From Pirellulaceae bacterium (GTDB lineage: Bacteria > Planctomycetota > Planctomycetia > Pirellulales > Pirellulaceae): a stretch of DNA of 64,000 nucleotides. The stretch is taken from the NCBI GenBank assembly GCA_026004795.1, contig BPJV01000006.1, forward strand, positions 248,001 through 312,000, in the 5' to 3' direction. Positions within the stretch are counted from its first letter, which is position 1. Each line of letters starts with the position of its first letter. Below, in pieces: positions 51,927 to 54,810 of the stretch. Under the pieces are notes generated by a model. It was not told the DNA's origin and searched no databases. It was given only the letters and a program-made list of their open reading frames with translations. Made by a program: the position numbers and the translations under genes.

Positions 51927-53060
51927 ATGAGCATCGCACCCCCAAACACCGCAAGTATCAAGCACTGGTTGGAAAAACTACAGTCGATCCAGGTAGGAAC
52001 CGACCCGCGCCAGCGGATCAAGAAGAAAGATCTGGTGCGTATCCTCTCCAGCCTGGCAACGCTCGTCAACAACGGCGTTTCCCTGCCCCAAGCCCTCGAT
52101 GCGATCCTGGCCGATGCCTCGTTTCGCAAATACCATCACATTTTGCACAGCTTGATGGAAACGCTGCGTGCAGGGGGCGCGTTATCCACGGCGATGCGCA
52201 AGTTCCCGGCGACGTTTCCCGAATTGTTGGTACATCAGGTGCAAGTGGGTGAACGGGCGGGCAACCTGAACAGGACTCTACGACGCATTGCCGAACAACT
52301 GGAACATGCGGCCAAGGTGCGGACGTTCCTGATCAAGAAGTTGAGCTACCCCGCACTGTTGGTGGTAGCAGGTATCGGCTCGGTGACCTTCATGCTCAGC
52401 TGCGTGATCCCCACCTTTCAAGAAATGTACCAGGAAAACGGAGCGGTTCTTCCCGGAATCACGCAATGGTTGATCAACGTGTCGCAAGTGACACGCGACT
52501 ACGCGTTGTTGCTGACCGTCGGCTTGGTAGGCGGAGTGATCAGCACGTTAGCCCTGTGGAAACACCCCACCTCTCGCCTTTTTCTCGATCAACGATTGCT
52601 ACGTGTTCCGGTAATCGGTAATTGGCTGCGGAATCTCGCCATGCTGCAGTTTATGGAAACCTTGGCGAACCTGCTGCAATCCGGCTTCACTCTGGTGGAA
52701 GCGATGGGACCAGCCGCCCAGTCGGTAAACAATCGTTTCGTACGCCAGCGCCTGACCGTCATCCATGGTTCGATCCGCCAGGGCCTCAAATTCAGCCAAG
52801 CGATTCAACATCATGAGAATCTATTTCCCCCAATCGTCAAACAGTTGGTATTGGTAGGTGAACGCACGGGACAACTTCCCGATGTGGCCGAACAGGTGCG
52901 CGTCCACCTGCGCGACGACATGGAGAAAACGACCTCGGCTCTGTTGGGGGCCATCGAACCGGTATTGACCGCCGGGTTAGCGGTGGCCGTCGGCGGTATC
53001 CTTTTGGCCGTCTACCTTCCCATGTTTGACATGATCGGCAATGTGCAGCAGGGGCAGTGA
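51927..53060 (+). CDS. GspF/PilC-type inner-membrane platform protein
   Basis: The 377-residue protein is a type II secretion/type IV pilus platform protein with two tandem T2SSF domains. Domain 1 (residues 35-165) shows KDLVRILSSLATLVNNGVSLPQALDA and LVHQVQVGERAGNLNRTLRRIAEQLEHA; the first membrane helix LVVAGIGSVTFMLSCVIPTFQEMY follows. Domain 2 shows MLQFMETLANLLQSGFTLVEAM and VKQLVLVGERTGQLPDVAEQ, with terminal TVLTAGLAVAVGGILLAVYL. It is 96 bp after the GspE stop and 4 bp before the second pseudopilin gene. Together with GspL/M it forms the platform. Confidence 0.93.
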   Translation: MSIAPPNTASIKHWLEKLQSIQVGTDPRQRIKKKDLVRILSSLATLVNNGVSLPQALDAILADASFRKYHHILHSLMETLRAGGALSTAMRKFPATFPELLVHQVQVGERAGNLNRTLRRIAEQLEHAAKVRTFLIKKLSYPALLVVAGIGSVTFMLSCVIPTFQEMYQENGAVLPGITQWLINVSQVTRDYALLLTVGLVGGVISTLALWKHPTSRLFLDQRLLRVPVIGNWLRNLAMLQFMETLANLLQSGFTLVEAMGPAAQSVNNRFVRQRLTVIHGSIRQGLKFSQAIQHHENLFPPIVKQLVLVGERTGQLPDVAEQVRVHLRDDMEKTTSALLGAIEPVLTAGLAVAVGGILLAVYLPMFDMIGNVQQGQ

Positions 53061-53063
53061 AAC

Positions 53064-53438
53064 ATGATCGACCAACCTAGCACCGCGTGCAAGAACTCAC
53101 CGGCGTCCGGGGGAGATCGTCCGCAGCGGCGCGGCCTGTCGCTGCTCGAACTGTTGGCCGTCCTCACCATCATGGGAGTATTGGCCGCGATCGTTGTGCC
53201 ACGCTTGGGCAGCGGCGGTGCCGTCGCCAAGAAGGAAGCCTGTGCCGTGCAACAGGCCACGATCGCCATCCAGTGCAAGCTTTGGCAACGTGAGCACGGA
53301 AGGCTTCCGCGGCGCGACCTGAGCGATATCGGCACCGATCCCCGTTACTTTCCAGAGGGCTTGCCCACCTGTCCCGTCGATCAGACCGCCTACCAGATTC
53401 ATCCGCTTACCGGCGAGGTGGTTGGCCACGAGCACTGA
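53064..53438 (+). CDS. GspG-like pseudopilin (second copy)
   Basis: The 124-residue protein carries the leader RPQRRG|LSLLELLAVLTIMGVLAAIVVPR with Glu at +5, then AIQCKLWQREHGRLPRRDLSDIGTDPRYFPEGLPTCPV, which is strikingly like the first copy (DLSDIGRDPNYFPDGIPTNPI). The two copies bracket the whole locus. The tail TGEVVGHEH could bind metal as in GspG calcium sites, but this is a guess. ATG 53064 is 4 bp after gspF. It is the last gene of the locus; a strong promoter-like site follows at 53517. Confidence 0.88.
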   Translation: MIDQPSTACKNSPASGGDRPQRRGLSLLELLAVLTIMGVLAAIVVPRLGSGGAVAKKEACAVQQATIAIQCKLWQREHGRLPRRDLSDIGTDPRYFPEGLPTCPVDQTAYQIHPLTGEVVGHEH

Positions 53439-53516
53439 TCCTGCTCCGGCCGACAGCGAGCGACCGGCCGGGGGGACAGTACACGGGAGACAGTCGGGCC
53501 CGTCGGTTGCCACGGC

Positions 53517-53544
53517 TTGCAGACCACCCGTTTTCGATCATAAT
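53517..53544 (+). promoter_or_regulatory. Putative sigma-70-type promoter of the aroF leader
   Basis: TTGCAG (53517-53522) and CATAAT (53539-53544) are separated by 16 bases. If correct, transcription would start near 53551, which is at the ATG of the leader ORF, so the leader peptide would be translated from a leaderless or nearly leaderless transcript. The start site is an inference. Confidence 0.55.
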
Positions 53545-53550
53545 AGTTGC

Positions 53551-53637
53551 ATGGTAAAGATTACTGGCTCCATCAACGATCGTTTCTATTTCGGTTTCCG
53601 CCCATACTTTATGGGCGGGGCTGGGAACGGTCTGTAA
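53551..53637 (+). CDS. Phe/Tyr-rich leader peptide (aroF attenuator)
   Basis: This 28-residue ORF is too short for ordinary gene calling. It reads MVKITGSINDRFYFGFRPYF followed by MGGAGNGL and a TAA stop. Six of ten consecutive codons (11-20) are Phe or Tyr (TTC, TAT, TTC, TTC, TAC, TTT). It begins 222 bases before the DAHP synthase start, is preceded by a promoter-like site, overlaps the first hairpin of an attenuator, and has no recognisable Shine-Dalgarno site. Starvation for Phe- or Tyr-tRNA would stall a ribosome at codons 12-20. I infer that it acts as a leader peptide in transcription attenuation; the peptide itself probably has no other function. Confidence 0.82.
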   Translation: MVKITGSINDRFYFGFRPYFMGGAGNGL

Positions 53638-53702
53638 CGAGCCAGGCTCAACAAATCGACCTTTCGCAGCCCCGACGATTGCACTGATCGCCGGGGCTTT
53701 TT
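53599..53702 (+). promoter_or_regulatory. Attenuator with pause hairpin, antiterminator and terminator upstream of aroF
   Basis: Strand 1 CGCCCATA (53599-53606) pairs with strand 2 TATGGGCG (53610-53617), a perfect 8-bp hairpin inside the leader ORF. A terminator forms from AGCCCCG.CGAT (53668-53679) with ATCG.CGGGGCT (53687-53698) followed by TTTTT ending at 53702. The exact antiterminator is CGGGGCTG (53616-53623) with CAGCCCCG (53667-53674), extended by three more pairs (53625-53627 with 53663-53665). Strand 2 can therefore pair with either 1 or 3. A ribosome stalled at codons 12-16 covers strand 1 and frees strand 2 for the antiterminator; a ribosome at the stop codon (53635-53637) covers strand 2 and favours termination. 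Confidence 0.82.
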
Positions 53703-53772
53703 GTTTGTCAATGGGTAAACTCGGTGGGCACCCGCTGCCTCCGAGGCAGGTACTGTCTGGAGATTACACAAG

Positions 53773-54810
53773 ATGATCGTCGTGATGGAAAAAGATGCCA
53801 CGCCGGATCAAGTCGAACACATGGTCCAACGCGTTCAAGAGATGGGCTTGAAAGCGCACGTCATCCAGGGCACCGAACGCACCGTGATCGCCGCCGTCGG
53901 AGATGAGCGGGTAACGAAAGCGGAAGCCCTGGAGAGTGGCCCCGGAGTGGCCAAGGTACTGCCAATCCTGGCTCCGTACAAAGTGGCCAGCCGCGAGTTG
54001 AAACCAGATCCCACGCAGGTGCGCGTGGGACCGTTTGCCGCCGGAGCAGGCGTGGTGGGGGTGATTGCTGGCCCCTGTTCGGTGGAAAGCGAAGAGCAGA
54101 TCATGGCGTCGGCCCATGCCGTCAAACAGGCAGGGGCGACGGCGCTACGCGGCGGTGCGTTCAAGCCACGAACAAGTCCCTACAGCTTTCAGGGGTTGAA
54201 GGAAGATGGCCTGAAGCTGCTGGCGCAAGCGCGGGAAGCGACCGGACTGGCCGTGGTGACGGAAGTGATGAGCCCCGAAGAAGTGGACCTGGTCGCTCGC
54301 TATGCCGATGTGTTGCAAATAGGTGCGCGAAACATGCAAAACTACCGTCTGCTGGAGGCTGCCGGCAAGAGCGACAAAGCGGTGCTGCTGAAGCGTGGAC
54401 CGGCCGCCACGCTGGATGAGTTCCTGCTGGCGGCCGAATACATCCTCAACGAAGGCAATGCCCACGTGATGCTCTGTGAACGAGGAATTCGCACGTTCGA
54501 AAGCCACACACGTTTCACCCTGCCACTGGCCACCATCGCCTACCTGCATAAGAAGACCCATTTGCCCGTCATCATCGATCCGAGCCACGGTACGGGACAC
54601 GCCTACATGGTGCCCGACATGGCGGTGGCGGCCGTAGCGGCCGGAGCGGATGGCCTCATGATCGAAGTCCATCCCGACCCGGAAACGGCAGCCTCCGACG
54701 GCTATCAGTCACTCAACTTCGCTCAGTTTGCCGAGACGATGGAACGTTGCCGCCGAGTGGCTGACGCCGTCGACCGCGTGATCTGCTCGATGGAAGAAGC
54801 GGCGGTGTGA
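53773..54810 (+). CDS. aroF: DAHP synthase, type I beta with ferredoxin-like regulatory domain
   Basis: 3-deoxy-7-phosphoheptulonate synthase condenses phosphoenolpyruvate and erythrose-4-phosphate, the first step of aromatic amino acid synthesis. The 345-residue protein has an N-terminal ferredoxin-like domain ([31 protein letters not shown], residues 1-70) like that of Thermotoga maritima, where it mediates Phe/Tyr feedback inhibition. The TIM-barrel core shows [53 protein letters not shown] and the metal/substrate region [15 protein letters not shown] 53773 follows GGAG. Its expression is probably controlled by the Phe/Tyr leader and attenuator just upstream. No other aro gene is adjacent. 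Confidence 0.96.

Follow-up and report, generated by a model that had tools for sequence, protein, structure and literature searches.

A probable ribosome-mediated transcription attenuator upstream of the DAHP synthase gene in Planctomycetota

The attenuators of E. coli follow a logic of four parts: a leader peptide, a protector hairpin, an antiterminator and a terminator. In E. coli, the pheA, trp and pheST leaders have a conventional 5ʹ UTR with a Shine-Dalgarno (SD) sequence, and leaders of this type are represented in Rfam by the families Phe_leader and Trp_leader. The pheA, trp and pheST attenuators are treated in the relevant passages of PMC11802643, which also cite (Neshat et al. 2014) the aroR/aroF attenuator of Corynebacterium glutamicum, where a leader containing Phe-Tyr-Phe stands before a DAHP synthase gene; the aroF leader also appears in a passage of PMC4046766. 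As summarized in PMC11802643, ribosome stalling in aroR raises transcription, and the response is to limitation for Phe, not Tyr. A second described system is the uORFC-13-1 motif, an upstream open reading frame (uORF) with proposed Phe-dependent control, located directly before an apparent terminator and exclusively upstream of aroF; in the description given in PMC8632094, it is reported only from Acholeplasma and environmental sequences and is linked to Phe only. Leaderless leader peptides, with the transcript starting at the start codon, are described for trpL of S. meliloti (in part of PMC7298713) and for trpL, ilvL and leuL of S. lividans (in part of PMC8079986).

Surveys have touched on this subject as well. 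The part of a 2016 survey (PMC4833913) that counts short leader genes in Planctomycetes does so without naming a DAHP synthase leader, and a 2005 survey of actinobacteria (PMC1262725) reports finding, for the phenylalanine and tyrosine operons of that group, no RNA regulatory structure conserved upstream. PMC12125101 yielded nothing relevant to the subject. No planctomycete attenuator was found among the matches listed in the open-licence literature, which is weak evidence of absence because the search covered open-licence papers and, within these, the matches listed. The initial annotation of the present locus knew of no description of such an attenuator for aroF in planctomycetes. This agrees with the matches listed, but DAHP synthase attenuators as such are not new, having been published or proposed for Corynebacterium and Acholeplasma.

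The locus lies in a 64,000-nucleotide stretch of DNA, analyzed as a whole and termed the window here, from the 5.59 Mb genome of a bacterium of the Pirellulaceae (Table 1). The features named in the initial annotation are all present, including the 28-codon ORF, the 8-bp hairpin overlapping it, the strong terminator with TTTTT, the exact 8-bp antiterminator and, downstream, a DAHP synthase with a ferredoxin-like domain. Ten consecutive residues of the leader peptide, RFYFGFRPYF, include six Phe or Tyr. The strand CGGGGCTG is the exact complement of CAGCCCCG, which makes up most of the lower 5ʹ arm of the terminator; the terminator arms themselves are AGCCCCG(A)CGAT (53668-53679) and ATCG(C)CGGGGCT (53687-53698). 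RNA spanning 53551-53772 folds with z = -4.24, beyond chance expectation. The predicted promoter boxes are separated by a 16-nt spacer, and the window transcript is predicted to begin at or next to the leader ATG, as expected from the promoter geometry. The DAHP synthase protein matches PF00793 (7.8e-78) and PF18152 (3.2e-23), the latter a ferredoxin-like domain that presumably senses Phe and Tyr. Further upstream are type II secretion or pilus-type genes (51927-53438), among them T2SSF at 51927 and an N-methylated pseudopilin-like protein at 53064, which stop about 80 nt ahead of the leader promoter.

Table 1. Features of the leader region and the adjoining gene (positions in the window).
Feature	Position	Strand	Basis or remark
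Predicted -35 box TTGCAG	53517..53522	+	Sequence; geometry recurs in related leaders
Predicted -10 box CATAAT	53539..53544	+	Ends 6 nt 5ʹ of the leader ATG; predicted leaderless transcript
Leader peptide ORF, MVKITGSINDRFYFGFRPYFMGGAGNGL then stop	53551..53637	+	28 codons; counterparts in 74/120 upstreams, own included
Codons 12-16 (F Y F G F), predicted regulatory stall codons	53584..53598	+	Occlusion folding; 13, 14 and 16 antiterminate, 12 mixed
ORF-internal protector hairpin CCGCCCAT-ACTTT-ATGGGCGG	53598..53618	+	8 bp; arms 53598-53605 and 53611-53618
Antiterminator 5ʹ strand CGGGGCTG	53616..53623	+	3 nt shared with the hairpin
Antiterminator 3ʹ strand CAGCCCCG	53667..53674	+	Shared with the terminator 5ʹ arm
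Intrinsic terminator AGCCCCGACGAT/ATCGCCGGGGCT then TTTTT	53668..53702	+	Sequence, alignment, folding
GGAGA, likely ribosome binding site for DAHP synthase	53759..53763	+	Sequence; SD-like motifs at homologous gene starts
DAHP synthase with N-terminal ferredoxin-like domain, proposed regulated gene	53773..54810	+	ATG at 53773

With a probability of roughly 0.87, this element controls the entry enzyme of the aromatic pathway as a ribosome-mediated transcription attenuator. Transcription would begin at or next to the leader ATG, and a ribosome would load onto the leaderless RNA and trail RNA polymerase. When charged tRNA-Phe and tRNA-Tyr (together with tRNA-Trp in most relatives) are plentiful, the ribosome would reach the leader stop codon and sit over CGGGGCTG or, once it has gone, the ORF-internal hairpin would compete for this strand. 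With CGGGGCTG occupied, the terminator would form and transcription would stop ahead of the DAHP synthase gene. When aromatic aminoacyl-tRNA is scarce, the ribosome would instead stall at codons 13-16 and block the 5ʹ arm of the hairpin; CGGGGCTG would then be free to pair with CAGCCCCG, no terminator would form and the DAHP synthase gene would be transcribed. The start site, translation, stalling, read-through and amino-acid response of the leader are, in this scheme, what we infer.

The anatomy of the element, its conservation and covariation and the in silico switching of the window RNA are shown. Counterparts were sought upstream of 130 putative DAHP synthase orthologues, comprising 50 whole-genome loci (the window's own included) and 80 on named contigs, the latter being the best 80 of 576. 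Loci with less than 300 nt upstream were dropped, as were duplicate copies judged by the 200 nt ahead of the gene; this left 120, which still include near-duplicates such as L029/L059. A strict detector required an ORF 12-45 aa long, carrying five or more F/Y/W per 10 codons, and an intrinsic terminator 5-75 nt past the ORF stop, all within 500 nt of the gene. It found this layout in 74 of the 120 non-redundant upstreams, window's own included, compared with 0/120 reverse complements, 0/115 regions 500 nt further up, 0/120 regions inside the gene and 2/600 shuffles. Sorted by identity to the window protein, positives numbered 18/24 (at least 75%), 37/52 (70-75%), 15/36 (65-70%) and 4/8 (below). 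A relaxed detector, requiring four F/Y/W per 10 codons within 700 nt, recovered 85/120 upstreams versus 5/120 reverse complements and 0/120 regions inside the gene. The strict detector was thus negative in 46 of the 120 upstreams and the relaxed one in 35. Near misses occur among the strict negatives (e.g., L005, L009, L016, L031, L034, L050 and L069), and others look like genuine absence of the element. The leader stops of L031 and L069 are 478 and 426 nt ahead of the gene, far beyond the usual distance, and in the leader peptide of L021 the aromatic block is tandemly duplicated (..QFYFASGQFYFASGQTV).

The layout extends across the phylum. In a draw of 149 genomes, 70 had a DAHP synthase match at E <= 1e-90, and the strict detector was positive in 16 of 28 loci (54-71% identity) that were the best-scoring new ones from these 70 genomes rather than a random set, one of them (L173) with only 61 nt upstream. 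Named positives include Rhodopirellula sp., Roseimaritima sediminicola, Bythopirellula sp. and Planctomicrobium sp., and further positives come from Gemmataceae (L112, L124) and Phycisphaerales (L123, L126). The strict detector was negative in Roseiconus nitratireducens (L076) and Alienimonas chondri (L115). The layout is seen again in records titled Pirellulales, Gemmataceae and Phycisphaerales as well as in further families, which suggests an old origin of the attenuator in Planctomycetota. Since the same layout is found in so many relatives across the phylum, the element very likely switches the aromatic pathway on when Phe and Tyr run short.

Upstream of paralogous DAHP synthases (47-53% identity), the detector found nothing in 20 loci, which were taken from 39 such rows and included one with only 141 nt upstream. 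It was likewise negative at 49 loci of other aromatic genes, comprising 19 prephenate dehydratase (PDT) and 30 TrpE-family loci, of which 7 were truncated with an approximate gene start. Within the window's own genome, one strict pattern for leaderless ORFs had 8 matches, and this leader was the only aromatic-rich one. An alternative is that a gene for a small protein or a small regulatory RNA lies upstream by chance and that the terminator merely ends that unit. Short attenuator transcripts can indeed act in trans, as rnTrpL does in the account of PMC7298713. However, recurrence of the layout before DAHP synthase (74/120), set against 0/20 paralogues and 0/49 PDT and TrpE-family loci, speaks against this, and the antiterminator covariation described below would have no obvious purpose in a free RNA; this alternative is judged highly improbable.

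Several observations concern the other aromatic genes. In G038, G039, G041 and G042, a second DAHP synthase (49-50% identity) directly follows the PDT gene in an apparent operon, and no attenuator was detected upstream of the PDT genes of these four genomes. Only the G039 member of these four paralogues was within the 20 tested, and absence at that position is trivial. In the window's own genome, the PDT match is split in two pieces (G000:C1:1018950-1019475), as is one TrpE-family match (G000:C2:47397-47823), reflecting sequencing error or decay.

The conservation of pairing was assessed in an alignment (A1) of 47 of the 74 positives: 43 of the 55 with at least 70% identity, plus 4 of the 19 below. 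Twelve of the 55 were kept out by hand owing to an unusual layout or near-duplication. The kinship of these sequences inflates every shuffle test in the leader analysis, making the results optimistic. In A1, 91.2% of terminator cells are paired, 10 of 13 pairs show compensatory change, and the covariation score is 0.391 versus 0.185 in shuffles of these related sequences (reached in 0/500). This conservation is partly built in because the detector had selected for a terminator. The antiterminator was no part of that selection; 76.9% of its cells are paired in A1 compared with at most 54.5% when the strands are slid, and its covariation score among these related sequences is 0.205 versus 0.152 (0/500 shuffles). 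Antiterminator cells changed on both sides number 37 versus 20.5 (0/500). Counted as pairs changed on both sides, there is no excess (7 versus 6.8 in shuffles), and pair types show a slight excess only (23 versus 19.3; 20/500).

Among the leaders with at least 70% identity (55), antiterminator strands pair with their own partners at -22.0 kcal/mol versus -18.3 kcal/mol with foreign ones (mean z of -1.85 against synonymous codons), and in the 19 leaders below 70% the values are -21.3 versus -15.6 kcal/mol (z of -1.96). In both identity groups, about one in six foreign partners (median) pairs as well as the leader's own. Taken together, terminator and antiterminator covary, and the mutually exclusive antiterminator is kept by compensatory change, the kind of stem evolution in relatives that the initial annotation had pointed to.

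Conservation support for the ORF-internal hairpin is mixed. A hairpin of at least 4 bp occurs in 47 of 47 aligned leaders, but its strength hardly exceeds synonymous-codon expectation (mean z 0.52; as a median, 0.53 of the resamples equal or exceed it). Its columns are 65.2% paired versus 67.8% when slid by one, a count that is not clear because the alignment register differs between subgroups. When 3ʹ arms were swapped among genomes, the total score fell from 664 to 551 +/- 22.5 (0/2000, again with related sequences), so each 3ʹ arm tends to fit its own 5ʹ arm. Another hairpin, placed about the stop codon of the leader, seemed by eye to recur (e.g., L019, L025 and L061) but was set aside, being no better than in dinucleotide shuffles (mean z -0.18 over 55 leaders).

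RNA pairing that is conserved, with a terminator ahead of a biosynthetic gene, might also be expected of a riboswitch that binds an aromatic amino acid and acts through the terminator, the ORF being incidental. However, the consensus fold of the 47 sequences yields the terminator only, and no Rfam family reaches its gathering score in 53300-54000. The seven weak matches in that region, at E up to 10, include neither Phe_leader nor Trp_leader and no riboswitch; a minus-strand match to His_leader, scoring 23.5 bits where the cut-off is 49, was set aside. Moreover, the open frame is strongly enriched in aromatic codons and often coupled with a leaderless-type promoter. A riboswitch is judged highly improbable.

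The ribosome-dependent switch of the attenuator model can be followed in silico. Occlusion folding takes only the window RNA 3ʹ of the ribosome footprint and returns the mean terminator pair probability at equilibrium. This probability is 0.98 without a ribosome and 0.98 with a ribosome at the stop codon, compared with 0.05, 0.36 and 0.41 with ribosomes at codons 13, 14 and 16, where the antiterminator reaches 0.94, 0.63 and 0.57. If RNA 5ʹ of the ribosome is also allowed to pair, the antiterminator is at least 0.98 at these three codons. At codon 12 the outcome is mixed (0.63), and the terminator prevails mostly at codon 19 (0.87) and fully at codon 20 (0.98), since a ribosome at those positions lies over the antiterminator strand. 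The flip proposed in the initial annotation was found, clearly so at codons 13, 14 and 16. Since antitermination is clear only at these three codons, the FYFGF group, not the later YF, would be the sensor. In the folding model, a ribosome stalled at the control codons thus disfavours the terminator in the window RNA.

The switch is less simple in two respects. In window RNA cut before the 3ʹ arm of the terminator, the antiterminator forms at 0.84 without any ribosome, which indicates that the hairpin alone fails to sequester the strand at the pre-terminator stage; the terminator prevails only after its completion. Untranslated RNA must therefore rearrange, or the hairpin form first, for termination to occur. 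Additionally, full equilibrium switching is limited to 22 of the 74 leaders, compared with 6.4% in the synonymous control, since the terminator fold tends to be the more stable of the two. The other leaders, in which the terminator outcompetes the antiterminator, would need the antiterminator to form first through co-transcriptional kinetics. Over all 74 leaders the mean terminator drop is 0.30 versus 0.075 in the control, and 32 beat all 10 of their controls. In its main points, the attenuator geometry originally proposed is supported by conservation, covariation and occlusion folding alike.

A leaderless start is suggested by promoters in relatives. The rule applied here asks for a -10-like box with A at position 2, T at position 6 and at least 4/6 matches; its end must lie 5-9 nt ahead of an in-frame start, and a TTG must stand another 15-20 nt upstream. 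Such a promoter precedes 37 of 55 leaders at 70% identity or more (1/165 at other start codons) and 9 of 19 below 70% (0/57). The spacer is mostly 16-17 nt, and the -10 box mostly ends 6-7 nt from the start codon. SD-like motifs are found at 6/72 leader starts versus 61/72 gene starts. Many relatives retain a short ORF rich in aromatic codons, the competing pairing and a promoter of the leaderless type; expression aside, these are the features whose loss the initial annotation had named as refuting.

Aromatic residues dominate the leader peptides, which are 15.5% F, 7.8% Y and 4.7% W versus 2.0%, 2.2% and 0.1% in the gene. Phe is present in 74/74 leaders, Tyr in 72/74, Trp in 60/74 and all three in 58/74. 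Trp occurs in only one of nine positives from the window's genus, and in 3/11 leaders at 77.5% identity or more versus 57/63 of the others. The window copy, itself without Trp, is thus the Phe/Tyr form of a leader that in most of the family is tri-aromatic. The sensor originally assigned to Phe and Tyr thus fits the window's genus (eight of nine without Trp), but family-wide it is mostly Phe/Tyr/Trp.

Many leader tails carry a further motif. The SD-like GGAGG is found within the final 8 codons of 28/74 leaders versus a synonymous expectation of 6.9 +/- 2.2 (0/1000), and in 26 of these 28 its distance to the stop is 4 or 7 nt. Among 41 leader Gly-Gly pairs, 32 begin with GGA, against a usage of 16%. 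Across all 74 leaders, pairing of the tail with the anti-SD is -7.15 kcal/mol, similar to the -6.59 of the gene's own ribosome binding site, compared with -5.51 for synonymous tails (mean z -0.86). GGAGG is absent from all 11 leaders nearest to the window, including the window copy. As an extension of the antiterminator, it brings a small gain (own -6.61, foreign -5.85, synonymous -5.92 kcal/mol; n = 28). Tentatively, GGAGG may act as a brake on the finishing ribosome, although shared ancestry or a role in RNA structure may lie behind it. If so, it would hold the ribosome over the antiterminator strand, promoting termination. The broader proposal of a phylum-wide pan-aromatic attenuator, with a leaderless leader that reads the charging of Phe, Tyr and Trp tRNAs, control of the entry enzyme alone and a GGAGG brake that enforces termination, is speculative and, as a whole, rather doubtful.

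Leader ends in A1 also tend toward GGTnYGTAR. In L010 and L011, the ORF stops earlier, yet by eye GTATGTAG is kept, hinting at a role for it as RNA. The final leader codon is NYG in 33/74 leaders versus a 22% background; a start-stop (NTG-TAR) reading of this end is weakened by the many NYG codons that are ACG, TCG or GCG, which are not start codons.

Conserved tails raise the alternative of nascent-chain arrest, for which TnaC, sensing a free amino acid in the exit tunnel, is the model: the leader peptide would sense a free aromatic amino acid in the tunnel and stall the ribosome near its C-terminus. By eye, tails of order-level relatives resemble FWFYFTPxGRGAGGGx before the stop and are more alike than codon composition demands. 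However, the antiterminator strand encodes this tail and varies in step with the terminator, and folding of the window RNA predicts that a ribosome at codon 20 or at the stop codon leads to termination, not induction. Nascent-chain arrest is therefore unlikely, and attenuation through stalling at aromatic codons is preferred.

Ahead of the same DAHP synthase, a different conserved leader was noticed in L085 (977-992), L094 (964-979) and L122 (1063-1078), with a looser relative in L127. By eye it comprises an SD sequence and a short ORF whose end reads roughly NQRWL.., together with a strong terminator and hairpins (GGCTGC..GCAGCC, CGACGGGCTGCCGTCG). The exact motif is found in 3/237 loci and as one copy each in 3/4 genomes searched, and it is possibly another type of attenuator.

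If the attenuator reading is true, Planctomycetota would join the phyla with classical attenuation, and their aromatic pathway would be gated at its entry by the charged tRNAs of its products together. The internal membranes of planctomycetes have long raised the question of whether transcription and translation are coupled. Attenuation needs a ribosome close behind RNA polymerase, and a working attenuator would therefore be direct functional evidence of coupling.

The planctomycete element shares with E. coli pheA and trp the logic of leader peptide, antiterminator and terminator, with a putative protector hairpin; unlike it, the attenuators of E. coli pheA, trp and pheST act on genes of a branch or of a tRNA synthetase. 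The leaderless leaders of S. meliloti and S. lividans belong to other amino acids, genes and phyla; their start sites are reported (PMC7298713, PMC8079986), whereas that of the planctomycete leader is predicted. Compared by the description in PMC8632094, uORFC-13-1 and the planctomycete leader both place a uORF and a terminator ahead of an aroF-type gene. Like aroR/aroF of C. glutamicum, as outlined in PMC11802643, the planctomycete element has an aromatic leader peptide upstream of DAHP synthase; unlike that system, again compared by description, it is spread across a phylum, and most of its leaders outside the window's genus add Trp.
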